Shown here: positions 4,749-16,035 of the stretch, piece after piece
Layout of the letters: every line of letters begins with the position of its first letter
Numbering within the stretch: the stretch's first letter is position 1
Assembly: GCA_016764115.1 (NCBI GenBank)
Contig: JAESSM010000041.1
Coordinates: forward strand, 1 to 16,197
Source of the DNA: Bacteroidia bacterium
GTDB lineage: Bacteria; Bacteroidota; Bacteroidia; JAESSM01; NORP286
DNA: 16,197 nucleotides
Direction: 5' to 3'
Made by a program: the position numbers and the translations under genes
Notes under the pieces: generated by a model
Databases searched by the model: none
The model's input: the letters and a program-made list of their open reading frames with translations, nothing else
Told to the model about the DNA's origin: nothing

Positions 4749-4871
4749 TTACTTCTTAGGATCAAGAATATTTAAGGTCAGGGCATTTGGTGATTTCTGC
4801 TTTTGTAATAGTTTAAACAAGAGGTCTTTAAGAAACAGTGTAGCAATCTGGAATAGTTGTTGTTCGGTGTA
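4749..4871 (-). pseudogene. possible gene-tail remnant (weak)
   Basis: On the - strand, in the same frame as the SpoIIE gene and after a second in-frame stop at 4872-4874, an open stretch of 40 codons runs to a TAA at 4749-4751. It reads from YTEQQLFQIATLFLKDLLFK to TLNILDPKK and has no ATG. It could be the decayed 3' end of a lost gene between the peroxiredoxin and SpoIIE genes, or chance: a frame this short in AT-rich DNA is not significant on its own. I do not recognise a family. Confidence 0.17.
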
Positions 4872-4892
4872 CTAGTCCAGATGAAGTTTAAT

Positions 4893-6251
4893 CTACATGC
4901 GCACTCCAATAACAAGGATATCATCAATTTGCTCCCGGCCATCTTTCCATGCTTCTATTTCTTCTTCTAATTTTCGACACTGCTCTTGCATAGAGTCATT
5001 TTTCAGTGTACTCAGAAATTCTCGCATTTTCCTGGAAGAGTATTTTTTATCCCTTGGTCCTCCAAATTGATCATGATATCCATCAGAATAAATATAAAAG
5101 CTTTCACCCGGTTGTAGTTGTATTTTGTGATTTGTGAAACTCCTTTCTATCTCAACTTCACCTCCAACTCCAGCCTTATCGGCTTTAATTTCTTCCAATG
5201 CATCTTCTTTATTTGGATGCAGAATATTAAGAGGTCTTCGCGCTCCTGCATATTCAATGTTTCTGGTTGTCAAATTAATTTTGCATAGCGCCATGTCCAT
5301 TCCGTCCATTACAATTGCATCAGCATCATATTGATGTAAGGCCTTCCCAATTCCTGCATGAAGTCTATTTAAAATTTCAGAAGGCGTTGTTTCTCCGCTT
5401 TCCAAAATTATTTGGTTAAGCAGATCGTTTCCTATCATTGACATAAAAGCTCCCGGAACACCATGTCCGGTACAATCAACAGCAGCGACCATATAACAGC
5501 CATTGGTTTTGGCGTAATAGTAAAAGTCTCCACTTACTATATCTTTTGGCTTGTATAATATGAAAGAGTCCGGTAGCTCTTTATAAACTTCCTCTTTTGG
5601 GTGCATGATGGCTGTCTGAATTCTTCTGGCATATTTAATACTATCCAGTATCTCCTTGTTCTTTTCCACGATGACTGCTTTCAACTCATCTCGTTTCACA
5701 ACAAAATATTCCAACAGAACATACACTATTGAACATATAACTGAAATGTTCATGACAAAAAATATCATACTTAATTCATTAGTAATTAGTGTTGAATTAT
5801 CAGGGAGTAGATAATCTAATATTCCACTGGTAATTAGGACTGCAATAAACGCGTAGAATAACCTTTTTGCTGTTTTTAAGTTGTGAAACATTAGTGCACC
5901 TAGTGGACTTAAAATTGATGCCATTACTACACTGCTGGCTTCTGTAAATCCTCCAAGAGAACATTGCACACAAAATGGGAGAAACAGAATTAATATGAGT
6001 TGGCTGGTGCGAAAAAATGAGTATTGTTTTGTGAAATAAAAAATGAATAAGTTTATAGCAGAAAGCAATGAATATGCAGTAACAACAGTAGCTGCGAGGT
6101 TAACACCAATTATAAAATAAAGGATTCCCCAAAGAAAACCAAAGCACAGAGTAATAGTGGCTATACGAAGAAGTATAGTTCTTCTGATTCTTTCCTCTTC
6201 GTCAAGATCACATAAGGCAAACCATTTGGTCCAGTTTAAAACTTGAGACAT
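4893..6251 (-). CDS. membrane-anchored SpoIIE/PP2C-like serine phosphatase
   Basis: A 452-residue protein in three parts. Residues 28-185 contain about six hydrophobic helices. Residues 186-218 form a helical linker (EKNKEILDSIKYARRIQTAI) frequent in Bacteroidota SpoIIE proteins. Residues 228-452 are a PP2C-like SpoIIE phosphatase domain. Metal-ligand positions are visible: Asp242 in VSGDFYYY, Asp259 in AAVDCTGHGVPGAFMS, MDGMDMAL near 317-321, the SDG at 389-391 and the terminal DDILVIGV with Asp443/Asp444. Such enzymes dephosphorylate serine on anti-anti-sigma (STAS) or similar partners, often in partner-switching stress control. No STAS or anti-sigma kinase gene is in the window, so the target is unknown. 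It lies 9 nt downstream of the seven-helix membrane protein gene and is very probably co-transcribed with it. The N-terminal helices presumably sense a membrane or envelope signal. Confidence 0.9.
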   Translation of the reverse strand: MSQVLNWTKWFALCDLDEEERIRRTILLRIATITLCFGFLWGILYFIIGVNLAATVVTAYSLLSAINLFIFYFTKQYSFFRTSQLILILFLPFCVQCSLGGFTEASSVVMASILSPLGALMFHNLKTAKRLFYAFIAVLITSGILDYLLPDNSTLITNELSMIFFVMNISVICSIVYVLLEYFVVKRDELKAVIVEKNKEILDSIKYARRIQTAIMHPKEEVYKELPDSFILYKPKDIVSGDFYYYAKTNGCYMVAAVDCTGHGVPGAFMSMIGNDLLNQIILESGETTPSEILNRLHAGIGKALHQYDADAIVMDGMDMALCKINLTTRNIEYAGARRPLNILHPNKEDALEEIKADKAGVGGEVEIERSFTNHKIQLQPGESFYIYSDGYHDQFGGPRDKKYSSRKMREFLSTLKNDSMQEQCRKLEEEIEAWKDGREQIDDILVIGVRM

Positions 6252-11157: not shown

Positions 11158-12747
11158 ATGAAGAAAGGCGATATACTTTTTATATTAATTTGCCTGACCC
11201 AGTTGGGGTATTCTCAATCTTTACAATTTGGGCCAAAACATAAAACCTCGGAAATAAAAGGTGGTATTGTGGAGCAAGCGGTTACAGATTCTAATGGGTT
11301 TAGTTATTTATTGTTGACTTATGACACTGAATACATGAATAATAATATAGGCATTGCTAAATTCAATAAGGGTTTAAAATTATTGGAACATGCTTATCTA
11401 ACGTTCGAAAATACTCGAATGAATATAAAAAGAAGTTTTGTTTTTAACAATATGATATATGTTCATACTTCATTATTGAATTATGGAATGCTGATACCCG
11501 CTGCTGAATATTATTATGCAGAATACTTAGTAATTTTTGATCTGAATGGAAAATACAAAAAGCAAACGGAGTTAATTAAAATAACGAAAAATCTAGGATC
11601 TTCCAATGACTATATATCTTCGATCACGATGTTACCGAATCAAGAAAGTTTTTTTTATGTTATATACAACAAATCCTATTCTCCAATTGATGTAACTTAT
11701 AAGGCATACGATGGTTTATTTAAGGAGTTTTGGAGCTATAATATAGAATATGATTATAAGTATAAAGTATTTAAGAAGCATGAACCGTCAGTAATTGGCG
11801 ACAATTTAATTGTATTGCTTGAAATAGAAAAGCATAAAAAGGAGCGAGTAAAAGGTGAAAATTATAATAATTTCATTGTTTATATCCAGCCTATTAACAG
11901 TGCGAACAAAATACTTAAATCATTAGAACTTCAGTATGATAAGTATGTAAGTCAATTGCAAGTGGTAAGGGGTTTGAATGAGTTGGAGGAAGAAGTAGAA
12001 ATATATGGAACCTATAACATTCCTTATGCAAGTAAAGGTATTGTAATTACTACACTTAGTATTGCGAATTTAACTTATAATTCAAAATATACAGAAATAG
12101 CATCCAAAGTCGTAGATCAATTACCAGATTCAAGAAAGGTTTATAAAAAGCGAGATGGCATTGAACATTATGACATTATGAATATTGGAATTATTGATGA
12201 ACATTATTTTCTGATTTTAGAAAAAAATTTAAATCAAACTGGCAGTAGTATGTTTTCGAATTATTCGGTTTCACCAATGGGAGCAGGTGGCCCAGGAATG
12301 ACCATTTACTATACCGGTGGTGGTGAGGTAAGCGGATTTTCAGGAGAAATAATAGTATTAAAATTTAATAATAAAAGAGAGATGGAATGGTTCAAAGTAA
12401 TACCCAAAAGACAAACTGTTTACGCATACCAAAGAAACGATATGCTATCACATAGAATGTTGGCCTCGAAAGACAATTTGTACTTTGTGTACCAAATAAT
12501 TGAAAGTGATAAGGATCTTGAAAGTGGAACTGATGATTTATCAGCTGATGTTGATGAATGCAAAATGAAGATTACAAAATTAACCCCCGATGGAAAACTA
12601 AGTAGCATTTATTTAACTCCTCATACAGATCAAGATATCAAAGATAAAAAACTGTTATACACATATATTCAAAAAGGCAGTAAAAACATATTTTATGCAA
12701 CTTCAGGCAGGATATCTTTTAGATTAATAAAACTTAACAGAAGGTGA
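11158..12747 (+). CDS. secreted protein of unknown function, 529 aa
   Basis: The protein begins with a clear signal peptide (MKKGDILFILICLTQLGYSQ), so it is exported to the periplasm or beyond. I recognise no domain. The mature chain is rich in Tyr, Asn, Lys and Ile, and alternates short hydrophobic strands with polar turns (for example AKFNKGLKLLEHAYLTF, YLVIFDLNGKYKK, EIIVLKFNNKREMEWFKVI, MKITKLTPDGKLSSIYL). This pattern suggests a beta-propeller or similar beta-repeat fold. A glycine-rich patch near residues 372-397 (SPMGAGGPGM, TGGGEVSGFSGE) interrupts it. There is no lipobox, and no C-terminal sorting domain of the Por type is obvious. It sits 44 nt after the symporter stop, and a hairpin terminator candidate follows, so it may be co-transcribed with the symporter. 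It lies between the intact symporter 3' end and a second diverged copy of that 3' end. Confidence 0.75.
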   Translation: MKKGDILFILICLTQLGYSQSLQFGPKHKTSEIKGGIVEQAVTDSNGFSYLLLTYDTEYMNNNIGIAKFNKGLKLLEHAYLTFENTRMNIKRSFVFNNMIYVHTSLLNYGMLIPAAEYYYAEYLVIFDLNGKYKKQTELIKITKNLGSSNDYISSITMLPNQESFFYVIYNKSYSPIDVTYKAYDGLFKEFWSYNIEYDYKYKVFKKHEPSVIGDNLIVLLEIEKHKKERVKGENYNNFIVYIQPINSANKILKSLELQYDKYVSQLQVVRGLNELEEEVEIYGTYNIPYASKGIVITTLSIANLTYNSKYTEIASKVVDQLPDSRKVYKKRDGIEHYDIMNIGIIDEHYFLILEKNLNQTGSSMFSNYSVSPMGAGGPGMTIYYTGGGEVSGFSGEIIVLKFNNKREMEWFKVIPKRQTVYAYQRNDMLSHRMLASKDNLYFVYQIIESDKDLESGTDDLSADVDECKMKITKLTPDGKLSSIYLTPHTDQDIKDKKLLYTYIQKGSKNIFYATSGRISFRLIKLNRR

Positions 12748-12842: not shown

Positions 12843-12896
12843 TAATCACCTCAAGAAGTTCAAGAAATTGTGGAGAGCATTCGGGTACCTAAATGA
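12843..12896 (+). pseudogene. fossil 3' end of a second sodium:solute symporter gene
   Basis: Bases 12855-12894 match the last codons of the symporter gene (11066-11105) at 36 of 40 positions. Read in frame from 12846 they give SPQEVQEIVESIRVPK and then TGA, compared with PPLEVQEMVENIRVPKSD at the end of the intact gene. Two of the four differences are silent. Just upstream the frame is broken by a TAA (12843-12845), and similarity fades after what looks like a one-base deletion. The TGA overlaps the ATG of the GNAT gene. This is best explained as the remnant of a paralogous symporter that was deleted or displaced. Confidence 0.75.
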
Positions 12897-13384
12897 TGAT
12901 TGAGTTTAAAAACATAAAGTTATTCGAACCTGGTATTTTCCAAACAATAGTTAAATCTTGTTACAATGATTTTCTAAAATCTTTTCCTGACGAAAAAGAA
13001 AACTTCTATAATCAATGGGAACAAGAGGATAAGGATGTTTTTGAAAATCTTGATACAATCGGTCAATGTACCTTTATTACATGTATAGATGATACACCAG
13101 TGGGATGTTGGAGCTATGACCCCAGGCAACATCCTATTGGTATTATTGGCCAAAATTGCATTCTACCACAATACCAAAATAAAGGGTACGGTGAGAGACA
13201 AATTCAAGCAATTATTGAGATATTCAAAAAGCAAAATTATAAGGAAATTAAAGTAAGTACCGGAGATAATGAATTTTTTTTACCGGCACAACGAATTTAT
13301 GAGAAATGTGGATTTGTAAAAATTGGATTTTCAAAAGGAGAACTTTTTGATTTAATTGAGTTCAAGAAACGATTACAACATTAG
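12893..13384 (+). CDS. GNAT-family N-acetyltransferase
   Basis: A 163-residue GNAT enzyme that transfers an acetyl group from acetyl-CoA to an amine. Motif A is INCILPQYQNKGYGERQIQA-like, with the pyrophosphate-binding QNKGYG at 95-100 after the CILP strand. Motif B is FLPAQRIYEKCGFVKIG (129-145), the usual AxRxYEKxGF helix-strand. The N-terminal half has DDTPVGCWSYD, the beta-hairpin before motif A. The substrate is unknown. Two adjacent ATGs (12893 and 12896) are possible starts; the first overlaps the TGA of the symporter remnant. A hairpin terminator candidate lies 38 nt after the stop. Single GNAT genes of this kind are frequent in accessory regions, which agrees with the surroundings. 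Confidence 0.87.
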   Translation: MMIEFKNIKLFEPGIFQTIVKSCYNDFLKSFPDEKENFYNQWEQEDKDVFENLDTIGQCTFITCIDDTPVGCWSYDPRQHPIGIIGQNCILPQYQNKGYGERQIQAIIEIFKKQNYKEIKVSTGDNEFFLPAQRIYEKCGFVKIGFSKGELFDLIEFKKRLQH

Positions 13385-13451: not shown

Positions 13452-13477
13452 AGTTATAAAACCCTCTATAATGACTG

Positions 13478-13570
13478 AAAAATGTTATTGTAAATTAATA
13501 TTGGTAACGGTATTTTTATCCAACTTTATATAGTGAGTAAAGGACATATGTCCTTTATTCCTATGTTGGC
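13478..13570 (+). repeat. hairpin repeat A, attC-like, upstream of the lipoprotein gene
   Basis: This stretch aligns without gaps, at about 73% identity (68/93 by hand), to 14221-14313 (repeat B). Its 3' half is a long hairpin. CCAAC (13520-13524) pairs with GTTGG (13565-13569), ATAG (13530-13533) with CTAT (13561-13564), and the core 13538-13557 is a perfect 20-bp palindrome centred on ACATATGT. Unpaired TTTAT and TGAG lie on the left arm and TTC on the right. Complementary AAC/GTT end boxes, an asymmetric stem with unpaired bases and a position just upstream of a gene resemble integron attC sites. The end box GTTGGCA departs from the GTTRRRY consensus. Confidence 0.7.
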
Positions 13571-13600
13571 AAACATTTAATCAAAATAAACCATAATCAA

Positions 13601-14095
13601 ATGAAAAATATCACACTTATTGCCCTGCTAACTTTGATATTCAGTTGTTCTACCGATATAAATGAAAAAGAGACCAGCCAATCCAAAAATGTTCCCGAAA
13701 TGAGGGGAAAAGAGACCAACCAATCTAATATTGTTACCAACTTTCTATATGATGTAACAAGTTTGGAAAATGAAGAAAGCAAAAACCCTATTATTAAGTT
13801 TCAAGAAATAGCGAACACTATAGCTGAAAAAGTAATTCTGATAAATAAAGAAAATATTGAATACTTTTTAACTGAAGCCATAGAATATAAATATTGTGTA
13901 ATAACGACTGGAGATCACACTATTGTTAAAATAGAAGATTTCAACAATTGTAAACAATCCGGTTCTTGGGCTGCATGCATGCCTTATGCAGAAGGATATA
14001 TAAAAAAAGGAAAATTAATATTTGAAAAAGATTATAGCAATAATATTATTGGCAGACCTGACTCACAAAAAAGAACGGCTTATCTATTTAATTGA
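13601..14095 (+). CDS. small lipoprotein of unknown function
   Basis: A 164-residue protein with a lipoprotein signal: MKNITLIALLTLIFSC, with a lipobox ending at Cys16, so the mature protein is lipid-anchored. After the cysteine comes a polar linker containing two copies of a 14-residue unit (KETSQSKN... and KETNQSNI...) encoded by a DNA direct repeat. The rest is a mixed domain with Cys98, Cys117 and Cys125 (YKYCVITT, NNCKQSGSWAACMPYAEGY), which could form a disulfide in the periplasm. I do not recognise a family. The gene starts 30 nt after the GTTGGC box of hairpin repeat A and is followed by a REP-like palindrome and then repeat B, so it occupies a unit of its own. Its low GC content and isolated position agree with acquired DNA. 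Confidence 0.7.
   Translation: MKNITLIALLTLIFSCSTDINEKETSQSKNVPEMRGKETNQSNIVTNFLYDVTSLENEESKNPIIKFQEIANTIAEKVILINKENIEYFLTEAIEYKYCVITTGDHTIVKIEDFNNCKQSGSWAACMPYAEGYIKKGKLIFEKDYSNNIIGRPDSQKRTAYLFN
13666..13735 (+). repeat. 42-bp-period internal direct repeat in the lipoprotein gene
   Basis: A 28-bp unit beginning AAAAGAGACCA at 13666-13693 recurs at 13708-13735 with four differences, a period of 42 bp (14 codons). It encodes the KETxQSxx linker just after the lipobox and probably arose by recent slippage or duplication. Confidence 0.7.
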
Positions 14096-14134
14096 CTAAT
14101 TCTAAATGAATATTGATTGAATACCCTCACTATC

Positions 14135-14183
14135 GCGCATTTGTAATGCGTGCTAATTCAGGTCACGCATTACAAATGTGCGC
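14135..14183. repeat. REP-like palindrome between lipoprotein and serine hydrolase genes
   Basis: CATTTGTAATGCGTG (14138-14152) is perfectly complementary to CACGCATTACAAATG (14164-14178) around an 11-nt loop. GCG (14135-14137) and CGC (14181-14183) extend the stem past a two-base bulge. The sharp GC-rich ends and isolated intergenic position resemble REP elements mobilised by RAYT transposases; no such transposase is in the window. As RNA it could also end the lipoprotein transcript. Confidence 0.7.
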
Positions 14184-14220
14184 CAGCATAGAACTCTATA
14201 TAATGGCCTGACCCGTCCTA

Positions 14221-14313
14221 AAAAATGTATTTGGAAGTTGATATTAGTAGGGGCACTTTTATTCAACTCTATGAAGAGGATAAACGACATGTGTCGTTTA
14301 TCTGTACGTTAGC
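14221..14313 (+). repeat. hairpin repeat B, attC-like, upstream of the serine hydrolase gene
   Basis: This is the ungapped counterpart of repeat A, 743 bp downstream of it. The core arms GATAAACGACA (14279-14289) and TGTCGTTTATC (14292-14302) are perfectly complementary around TG. The outer box CAAC (14264-14267) faces GTTAGC (14308-14313) with partial pairing. Relative to A, one G-C pair in the core has become C-G on both arms. Weaker similarity continues further 5' (CTATATAATGG near 14197 against CTCTATAATGA near 13464) with a roughly 10-nt insertion here. The hydrolase ATG lies 36 nt after GTTAGC. Confidence 0.7.
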
Positions 14314-14349
14314 CACTATAAACAACAATAACTATAGTAAATAAAAAAT

Positions 14350-15816
14350 ATGAAACAAAATTCAAAATATACATTAATGAGGATATATGGTATTGGAATG
14401 TTTATCCTTTTGACATCACTTAATGTTTCCTTTGGACAAACCAAAATAGAACAGCTAGACGAATTGTTAAATCTCTATACTGAATATGGACAATTTAATG
14501 GTTCTGTTCTTGTTGCAGAAAAAGGTGAAATTATTTATAAGAAAGGCTTTGGATTGGCTAATATGGAATGGAATATTCTAAATCAACCTAACACTAAATA
14601 CAGATTAGGTTCCCTCACTAAGCAATTTACCGCCATGTTAATTTTACAAATGGCTTCAGAAAATAAACTAAAGTTAGACGTCCCAATCTCAACCTATCTG
14701 CCAGATTATCCAAAACCGAATGGTGACGACATAACTATTCATCACCTACTTACACACTCCTCAGGTATTCCAAATTACACTTCGTTTCCCAACTTTAGAA
14801 ATAAAGAGCGCAATCGTTATAGCCCTGAAGAAATGATCCGTTTTTTCGCTGATTCAACACTTCAATTTACACCGGGAGAAAAATATGAATATAGTAATTC
14901 AGGTTATTTTCTCTTGGGTGCCATAATAGAGAAAGTAACAGGTAAATCATACGAACAGGTATTACAGGACAAGATATTTACTCCCCTTAAAATGATTAAT
15001 ACAGGTTATGATCACCACAGCACTATTTTAAAAAACAGAGCTTCGGGCTATGAACGTGAATGGAATAGCAGGGTATTCATAAATGCCGCCTTCGTTGATA
15101 TGTCAATTCCATATGCAGCAGGATCGATTTATTCAACAGTTGAAGATTTATACCTATGGGATCAGGCTTTATATTCTAACCAGCTCCTTTCAAAGGAATA
15201 TATGGATTTAATTTTTGCGAATCATGGATCAGGTTATGGATATGGTTGGGGTGTTAATAAGGACGATATTCATGGAACAGGAGACAGTCTTTCAGTGATA
15301 GAACATCAAGGTGGAATAAATGGGTTTCATACGCAGATTTTCAGAATTCCATCTGACAAAAACCTGATCGTATTATTTAACAATACCTCAAGGGCCCCTC
15401 TTGATGCAATGACTACTACTATTAATCGAATACTTTATGATAAACCTTATGATTTACCTAAAAAATCTATCGCTCTTTCTTTGTTTGATGTGATAGAGAA
15501 AGATGGTGTCACCACTGCACTTTCATATTATAAGGAGGTTAAAGATTCTAGTCATTGTTATCTCAATGATGATGAAATGAATCAAGTAGGATATCAGTTG
15601 TTGAACTCTGATAGAGCAAATGAGGCAGCATTTATTTTTAAATTGAATGTAGAAGCATTTCCTAATTCTTGGAATGTTTATGATAGTTATGGAGAGGTGC
15701 TGCTGGTTTTAGGAAATAAAGCTCAGGCCATAGAAAATTATAAGAAATCTGTACAATTAAATCCAGGTAATGAAAACGGTATAAAAATATTGAAGGAATT
15801 GAAGAATAAACAATGA
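14350..15816 (+). CDS. secreted beta-lactamase-fold serine hydrolase with C-terminal TPR
   Basis: A 488-residue protein with a signal peptide (hydrophobic core near 12-28, ending SFGQ). The catalytic domain, about 33-365, has the three class C beta-lactamase/penicillin-binding-protein motifs: Ser88-Leu-Thr-Lys91 (SxxK, nucleophile Ser88), Tyr181-Ser-Asn183 (YxN) and His319-Gln-Gly321 (HxG in place of KTG). LLTHSSGIPNY and AAGSIYSTVEDLYLWDQAL are also family hallmarks. Residues about 410-485 form tetratricopeptide-like helices (SYGEVLLVLGNKAQAIENYK), a common appendix in Bacteroidota members. It probably hydrolyses a peptide, ester or D-amino-acid substrate in the periplasm; the HxG motif favours an esterase or peptidase over a true beta-lactamase, so antibiotic resistance should not be assumed. 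The gene sits between hairpin B and hairpin C. Confidence 0.9.
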   Translation: MKQNSKYTLMRIYGIGMFILLTSLNVSFGQTKIEQLDELLNLYTEYGQFNGSVLVAEKGEIIYKKGFGLANMEWNILNQPNTKYRLGSLTKQFTAMLILQMASENKLKLDVPISTYLPDYPKPNGDDITIHHLLTHSSGIPNYTSFPNFRNKERNRYSPEEMIRFFADSTLQFTPGEKYEYSNSGYFLLGAIIEKVTGKSYEQVLQDKIFTPLKMINTGYDHHSTILKNRASGYEREWNSRVFINAAFVDMSIPYAAGSIYSTVEDLYLWDQALYSNQLLSKEYMDLIFANHGSGYGYGWGVNKDDIHGTGDSLSVIEHQGGINGFHTQIFRIPSDKNLIVLFNNTSRAPLDAMTTTINRILYDKPYDLPKKSIALSLFDVIEKDGVTTALSYYKEVKDSSHCYLNDDEMNQVGYQLLNSDRANEAAFIFKLNVEAFPNSWNVYDSYGEVLLVLGNKAQAIENYKKSVQLNPGNENGIKILKELKNKQ

Positions 15817-15827
15817 AATAACGAAAG

Positions 15828-15889
15828 GCTAACAATGTATATGAAATCATAGCTCGTTCCTCGCTACGCTTCAGATACAAACCGTTAGC
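15828..15889 (+). repeat. attC-like hairpin C after the serine hydrolase gene
   Basis: The end boxes GCTAAC (15828-15833) and GTTAGC (15884-15889) are perfect complements. Inside them, TGTATATGAAATCATAGC (15836-15853) pairs imperfectly with GCTACGCTTCAGATACA (15863-15879), about 13 of 17 positions, around the loop 15854-15862. Spacers between boxes and stem are unequal (AA against AACC), and unpaired bases break the stem. Two complementary AAC/GTT boxes flanking an imperfect stem with unequal spacers is the architecture of integron attC sites. The primary sequence is unlike repeats A and B. Confidence 0.6.
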
Positions 15890-15912
15890 ACACATACAAA
15901 GGAGACAGTTGA

Positions 15913-16035
15913 TTCAGGAAAATAAATTGTATTAGTTGCGGAAAGGATGAAGACCCAGGAGAATATCGAATAAAAAGTGATGTGGATGATACAAAAGCAG
16001 CAAATGCAGATAGTTTATCAGGAGATACACCCTAA
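15913..16035 (+). pseudogene. small zinc-ribbon-like reading frame without a start codon
   Basis: Between the in-frame stop at 15910-15912 and TAA at 16033-16035 runs FRKINCISCGKDEDPGEYR followed by about 19 more residues, ending LSGDTP. CISC (Cys-x-x-Cys) near the front looks like half of a zinc ribbon. There is no ATG, GTG or TTG in frame; the ATA at 15922-15924 sits where a start giving MNCISCGKDE would be expected, so a mutated ATG is the simplest reading. It begins 24-33 nt after the GTTAGC box of hairpin C, as the intact genes do after A and B. The remaining 80 nt to 16115 contain nothing I can identify. Confidence 0.35.

Follow-up and report, generated by a model that had tools for sequence, protein, structure and literature searches.

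The question raised by the end of contig JAESSM010000041.1 of a Bacteroidia bacterium (assembly GCA_016764115.1) is whether three hairpins, which alternate there with genes, are recombination sites of a gene cassette system resembling the integrons. The stretch of DNA which was analyzed (16,197 nucleotides (nt); hereafter the window) is the whole contig C93 of the genome G000, the assembly of which comprises 2.09 Mb in 244 contigs and is 69% complete. The relatives of G000 that were available for comparison belong to the same class only. With a probability of roughly 0.8 the hairpins, named e1 to e3, are part of an integron-like cassette system that would comprise attI-type sites (e1 and e2), attC-type sites (e3) and a tyrosine recombinase. 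Recombination sites of a cassette system had already been proposed in a first-pass annotation of the window, and this proposal is borne out by breaks right after GTTR, arrays on one strand and a recombinase at the array head, all of them found in relatives. The three sites, with their matches to the models R2 and R3 of the two site families described below, are:

13522..13579, + strand: e1 (hairpin 1), putative attI-type palindromic site; R3 match of 65.9 bits, e1 itself being in the R3 training set
14265..14322, + strand: e2 (hairpin 2), putative attI-type site homologous to e1; R3 match of 64.6 bits, likewise in the training set; box GTTAGCC at 14308 on the + strand, assigned by pairwise homology to e1 and by stem covariation of the family
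15824..15892, + strand: e3 (hairpin 3), putative attC-type site; R2 match of 67.9 bits (E 1.1e-12), being one of the 66 training sequences; boxes R″ GGCTAAC and R′ GTTAGCA (at 15884), both on the + strand

Hairpins of two kinds

The GTTRGC boxes at the hairpin ends are exactly those claimed in the first-pass annotation (GTTGGC at 13565, GTTAGC at 14308 and GTTAGC at 15884), and genes were also correctly placed close behind hairpins 1 and 2, the start codons of a lipoprotein gene and a hydrolase gene being located at 13601 and 14350, respectively. The three long imperfect hairpins are likewise found where they had been described. As single-stranded DNA, hairpins 1 and 2 fold better than all of 200 dinucleotide shuffles (z -3.25 and z -3.49), but hairpin 3 is weaker by folding energy (z -1.82), as 8 of 200 dinucleotide shuffles were equally good. 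Its status as a site is therefore based on homology instead. Likewise, the three units are not all alike. Hairpins 1 and 2 share a homologous stretch of about 145 nt, of which about 65 nt lie upstream (local alignment score of 105, compared to at most 46 in 200 letter shuffles), whereas hairpin 3 is a different sequence without such similarity to the other two. The complementarity of the outer boxes proposed for hairpin 2 is confined to the AAC/GTT pair, with otherwise only a T-G pair past a mismatch. Of the three hairpins that had been regarded as attC-like, only hairpin 3 retains this assignment, hairpins 1 and 2 being of the attI type. The lipoprotein interval consequently has the layout attI-gene-attI and only the hydrolase interval the layout attI-gene-attC.

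The e3 family and its arrays

A 24-nt degenerate pattern, which represented the 5′ arm of e3 only, was searched in a species-genome collection and yielded 77 loci, 71 of which are from Bacteroidota by record title (Balneolales included) and six from others, mostly from metagenome-assembled genomes (MAGs). The 3′ arm, which was left free in the pattern, is close to TTCATATAC (at least 7 of 9 bases) in 73 of these loci. A GTT comes no more than 10 nt after it in 59 of the 77 loci, in 56 of them as GTTR. The site alignment A2 contains 66 sites, e3 and 65 relatives. As it omits 12 of the 77 loci (four without a proper 3′ arm, judged by eye, and eight with a deviating 3′ end), its box counts (GTT in 56 of 66) are somewhat favorable, while the count over 77 loci covers all. 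The sites share the fold of attC, that is, an AAC/GTT outer pair, a short unpaired spacer and an asymmetric inner stem, in which a 4/3 internal loop is followed by a short stem and a variable loop. Pair covariation is uninformative for these stems, their 5′ arm being fixed by the search pattern. The Y before AAC and the R after GTT pair randomly (TA 18, TG 17, CA 15, CG 13; n = 66), which is expected if the bases past the G belong to the next unit. Hairpin 3 is accordingly classed here as a predicted attC-type site. With a strict e3 pattern the window itself was the sole match in 198 genomes. The two viral contigs that matched the e3 pattern did so inside a long open reading frame (ORF) and were judged chance matches; the e1/e2 pattern was too loose for a scan of viral contigs.

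With the covariance model R2, e3-type sites were detected in 51 of 53 genomes, 50 of the 53 in the R2 and R3 scans having been picked for an e3-arm match, and in 42 of 395 evenly drawn Bacteroidia. At all 37 loci with at least two sites these sites lie on one strand (mirror matches dropped first). The 59 intervals between sites have a median length of 1,461 nt; they contain one ORF in 28 cases, two in 18, three or more in 11 and none in two. The first ORF begins at a median of 21 nt past the site, and 101 of the 104 ORFs are co-directional with the sites. As to the question raised in the first-pass annotation, whether each hairpin copy flanks a different single gene, the copies bound different genes in one-strand arrays, and a single ORF is present in 28 of the 59 intervals. 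For the array counts and for the test of own-start pairing below, mirror-strand and duplicate matches were removed by hand and weak matches (E up to 1, 0.5 or 0.1, depending on the scan) were mostly kept, and some loci are adjacent stretches of one contig; the genome-wide scans with R2, R3 and an earlier model, R1, used stricter filters by which weak matches were lost. G000 itself has six e3-type sites by R2, including an array on contig C156 in which two sites enclose a NUDIX gene and precede a GNAT gene. An array of Aquimarina (L309) contains two similar genes of 214 aa (4858-5502 and 11289-11933), each with an attC-type site behind it; the two sites resemble each other and are unusually short (57 nt).

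Predicted circular units and their junctions

If a unit was at some time a circle closed at G/TT, its own first bases, and not those of its neighbor, should be complementary to the box that precedes its 3′ hairpin. Across 50 intervals (15 genomes), the own start was matched by the six bases beyond AAC at 3.66 of 6 positions and the adjacent box at 1.68 of 6, compared to a shuffled mean of 2.0 of 6, and none of 10,000 shuffles reached the observed value. Perfect complementarity was found to the own start in 17 of the 50 intervals and to the adjacent box in none. For the intervals which open at an attI-type site (n = 12) the values were 4.5 of 6 and 2.1 of 6, and for the NUDIX cassette of C156, the upstream site of which is a weak match, 5 of 6 and 1 of 6. 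In the window the hydrolase cassette starts with GTTAGCC (14308), to which the e3 box GGCTAAC is reverse-complementary at all 7 nt.

Gene swaps with junctions at G/TT were looked for in six pairs of loci that resemble each other upstream and stem from relatives, not from the strain of the window. The anticipated junction was observed in two of these pairs, which break right after GTTR, and not in the other four. Two uncultured Flavobacteriales (L184 and L225) are similar for about 1 kb (90-100% identity in each 50 nt) as far as CGTTA, after which they are unrelated. A Saprospiraceae and a Crocinitomicaceae locus (L189 and L221) are 98-100% identical over the 150 comparable upstream nt up to CGTTG and then also unrelated. 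This near-identical cassette end in two MAGs could reflect a recent transfer across orders, or mis-binning of a MAG. The units in the arrays qualify as predicted cassettes, which would form circles with a crossover at G/TT.

The e1/e2 family beside integrases

Palindromes of the e1 kind are located directly after a recombinase gene in Aquimarina sp. AU58, Crocinitomix catalasitica, a Crocinitomicaceae genome and at L225, and the tyrosine recombinase beside them points into the array. The model R3 was built from 12 e1-type sites, partly found through the palindrome itself, among which are five integrase-side sites and four sites of the genome G275 but none of the 16 places tested for adjacency. 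It superseded R1, which was made from e1 and e2 only and gave weak matches outside the window. Its stem covariation is strong (0.665, compared to 0.174 when shuffled, with none of 500 shuffles reaching it). A search of 395 Bacteroidia with the integrase alignment A6 yielded 16 genomes at 526-645 bits, here called the clade, and a next score of 390; this border (526 versus 390 bits) was chosen after the gap was seen. An R3 match on the same strand (E ≤ 0.03) adjoins 12 of the 16 clade integrases and starts between 6 nt before and 17 nt after the coding end. At 14 lower-scoring integrase loci no R3 match was obtained at E ≤ 1, three of them (L430, L436 and L437) having less than 170 nt downstream. 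From this it appears that e1 and e2 are attI-type sites as well.

Besides e1 and its mirror, a blastn search with e1 in G000 gave only weak short matches (best E 0.08), and the 37 matches of a short e1/e2 pattern in G000, compared to 25 of the reversed control, are indistinguishable from chance. There are four e1-type places in G000, and one e1-type place each in G275 and G323 adjoins an integrase. Some integrase-distant sites closely follow an unrelated gene; such sites may be extra landing sites.

Several further sites of this type deserve mention. In G000 they lie at L402:7012-7067 and L403:8731-8789, each followed by a gene of the same strand, and the latter begins where an unrelated gene has its stop codon. 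Sites at L356:12792-12849 (G275) and L401:9699-9755 (G298) are found beside umuC/dinB-like polymerase genes, identified by eye from ORF starts. A region of G323 (C2:106-149 kb; L394-L396) carries nine attI-type sites on one strand plus a few attC-type sites, often with several genes per interval, for which one attI per integron would not account.

The integrase clade

A search for a tyrosine integrase elsewhere in the genome had been suggested in the first-pass annotation. Integrases of the clade were found at array heads in several relatives, but none in G000, in which generic tyrosine recombinases exist. The simplest reason for this absence is missing sequence, although loss is possible. No match to the integron integrase model TIGR02249 exceeded the cut-off in G000, in 60 genomes including G000, or in 15 genomes with attC-type sites; several of these 15 are near-complete. 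Instead, it is the clade that is located at the array head. The clade proteins match TIGR02249 under its cut-off, in two separate stretches, and lack the IntI-specific domain, as they have 23 residues where IntI4 has 66 and the structure model shows 16 residues between the flanking helices. They keep the conserved R, K, H, R, H and Y, have an extra N-terminal part and are, by sequence and fold, near XerA/XerC-like enzymes and IntI4; the fold look-up effectively covered residues 105-382. All three clade proteins tested passed the cut-off of NF040815 (XerA/XerC-like). In a tree the clade forms one side of a branch with a support of 100/99.

Attachment sites of the attC type occur in 10 of the 16 clade genomes, compared to 32 of the 379 others (Fisher p 3.2e-7), whereas lower-scoring integrases show no such link (13 of 136 versus 19 of 243, p 0.57); as the genomes are not independent, these p-values are only guides. 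At least six genomes carry an attC-type site no more than 10 kb downstream of an integrase from the A6 search and on its strand, namely G236, G441, G166 and G261 for the clade and G050 and G355 for lower-scoring integrases. In these last two genomes, attC-type sites lie directly downstream of non-clade integrases (G050 C3:233607-236084 and G355 C80:47141-49545), so that wider relatives of the integrase may also serve such sites. No clade members were recognized on plasmids, where the best relative is 44.9% identical, or on phages, where the eight records listed (of 18) have an identity of 37.1% over a coverage of 66%.

Proposed mechanism and reading of the window

An integron-like system of Bacteroidota would have the end of its cassette region in the window. 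The recombinase, which in relatives is encoded upstream of the array and points into it, would insert circular, mostly one-gene cassettes at an attI-type site by cutting between G and TT of GTTR, at e1 expectedly at 13565. Each cassette would bear one attC-type hairpin at its 3′ end, and in the circular form R″ would pair with the first bases of the same cassette. The site families, the GTTR junctions, the circular logic of the units and, in other genomes, the adjacency of integrase and attI-type site are all evident from sequence comparison. The clade integrase is presumably the enzyme of the system, the attC-type sites would be used as a folded single strand, and the cassettes in the window have probably moved at some time. 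The system would work like an integron, although strict membership fails on the IntI domain; it is not classed as a canonical integron because this domain was tested for and found absent.

Read in this way, the window would consist of attI e1, the lipoprotein gene, attI e2, the serine hydrolase gene, attC e3 and the start of a next unit, with e1 and e2 in tandem, the hydrolase gene as the cassette between e2 and e3, and the lipoprotein gene between two attI-type sites. The remaining features are:

12893..13384, + strand: GNAT acetyltransferase gene upstream of e1, not assigned to a cassette (PF00583, E 2.7e-14)
13456..13521, + strand: upstream block before e1, common to e1 and e2 (alignment)
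13601..14095, + strand: putative lipoprotein gene (164 aa), interval e1-e2 (attI-gene-attI)
14188..14264, + strand: upstream block before e2, matching that of e1 (alignment)
14350..15816, + strand: serine hydrolase gene (488 aa), putative cassette between e2 and e3 (PF00144, E 9.2e-64)
15913..16035, + strand: start-less CxxC frame after e3, putative start of the next unit (read from sequence)

The two upstream blocks are possibly an accessory part of the site. No Pfam or NCBIfam match was obtained for the lipoprotein, the gene of which contains a 42-nt in-frame tandem duplication (13653-13736, 76% identical). The hydrolase belongs to a beta-lactamase-fold family (PF00144), has a weak TPR match under its cut-off and is far under the cut-off for every one of the 25 NCBIfam models listed. 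The frame at 15913-16035 lacks a usable start codon; the end of the contig is at 16197. Between the lipoprotein gene and e2, a 19-bp near-perfect inverted repeat, CGCGCATTTGTAATGCGTG, with a loop of 11 (14134-14182) forms a hairpin stronger than e1-e3 (z -4.46) and is probably a terminator or other repeat. An Rfam search of the window revealed no family, and the region gave no blastn match in plasmids or phages.

Counter-evidence and alternative explanations

Several observations weigh against an integron-like system. In 8 of the 50 intervals the own-start score is 0 of 6 (intervening sites may have been missed there), and the circular signal in the window is modest (4 of 6 for the own start, 3 of 6 for the adjacent box). 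The similarity between L181 and L247 extends about 30 nt past GTT, and that of L181/L253, L247/L253 and L204/L233 fades less sharply than in the two pairs with clear breaks. Three of the seven clade integrases of the discovery set (G320, G311 and G338) lack an adjoining R3 match, the lower-scoring integrase L324, outside the set of 14 loci, has one, and many e1-type copies lie away from integrases (10 places in G275 and 15 in G323). G000 itself yielded no clade integrase in the A6 search, with the incompleteness of this genome noted above, and in six of the 16 clade genomes attC is not detected at E ≤ 1e-3. Canonical attC boxes are RYYYAAC and GTTRRRY; the first-pass annotation had noted a deviation from this consensus, and in the e3 family the two boxes are indeed found in only one and five of the 66 sites, respectively, and are thus mostly absent. 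Finally, the clade enzyme lacks a domain which is regarded as necessary for integron recombination.

Among other explanations, it is conceivable but doubtful that palindromes of the e1/e2 type are a second class of cassette end, resembling attC, rather than attI. Such palindromes are present in many copies per genome and in one-strand runs in the region of G323 mentioned above, and the lipoprotein gene is bounded by e1 and e2. As a downstream interval end, however, they show no own-start pairing (2.25 versus 1.98 shuffled, p 0.26; 8 pairs only), for which reason e1 and e2 were rejected as attC of the upstream genes, and e1-type sites begin within about 20 nt of integrase coding ends. An origin as relics of ordinary integrons (clusters of attC sites lacking integron-integrases, CALIN), with the canonical IntI merely missing from the assemblies, would agree with the resemblance of the sites to the attC layout known from the literature and with the incomplete genome of the window. 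It is nevertheless improbable, as TIGR02249 gave no match over its cut-off in the genomes searched, several of them near-complete, and the array head is occupied by the clade without the IntI-specific domain.

The host recombinases XerC/XerD acting on dif-like palindromes are a quite improbable explanation: generic tyrosine recombinases are encoded in G000 and the clade itself is Xer-like, but co-occurrence and adjacency are with the clade and not with lower-scoring recombinases. That the hairpins are plain intergenic repeats (similar to miniature inverted-repeat transposable elements or repetitive extragenic palindromic sequences) or terminators without a role in recombination could be argued from the general frequency of intergenic hairpins and from e1 and e2 being repeats of each other. 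This idea appears very improbable in view of the circularly matched ends, the breaks right after GTTR between genomes and the attI adjacency, and plain repeats or terminators were disfavored by own-start pairing and GTTR breaks.

Comparison with known systems

Integrons, both class 1 and chromosomal, resemble the cassette system proposed here in arrays on one strand, the units of which mostly comprise one or two genes, in imperfect attC-type hairpins with AAC and GTT and a crossover signal at G/TT, and in an attI-type acceptor beside a tyrosine recombinase with the conserved R, K, H, R, H and Y. They differ in that the integrase here has no IntI-specific domain but an extra N-terminal part, that attI here, a long palindrome where the integrase gene ends, is also present in additional copies, and that the box consensus is not canonical. 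In chromosomal integrons of Treponema, intI and the cassettes have the same orientation, with intI being read towards attI (PMC3607928), and the recombinase gene likewise points into the array here; by their description these integrons are set apart, as they carry intI, whereas the clade lacks the IntI domain and is found in Bacteroidota. The arrangement of a gene with attI on both sides, as in e1-lipoprotein-e2, has a counterpart in class 1 integrons, where attI1-aadB-attI1 is functional with IntI1 and delta-attI units excise efficiently (PMC12901181). Integrase and site sequence are, however, different there. XerA/XerC-like recombinases (NF040815) are near the clade proteins by sequence and fold; unlike these, the clade is located at the head of a cassette array and is usually accompanied by an attI-type site of its own.

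Integrons are described as needing the IntI-specific domain for recombination, and the standard detector requires it as well (PMC9668308); with the acquisition of this domain, recombination is held to have changed from double to single strands (PMC7790495). Bacteroidota are named among the phyla that bear integrons (PMC8618304), and IntegronFinder 2.0 reported for Bacteroidetes, formerly known for In0 only, one complete integron, in Salinibacter (PMC9024848). In the excerpts of open-access literature covered, no Bacteroidota integron lineage without the domain was found described. There may be an even chance that a widespread lineage of this kind exists, the integrase of which recombines hairpin attC without the IntI-specific domain (I2), either by another solution (e.g., the extra N-terminal part) or in a double-stranded reaction. 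If so, detection that requires the IntI domain has missed complete integrons in Bacteroidota, and the capture of cassette genes in this phylum has been under-counted. The hairpins resemble the sites of integrons, which are known for spreading antibiotic resistance, and the combination of attC-type hairpins with an enzyme lacking the domain would make the step from double- to single-strand recombination directly testable.

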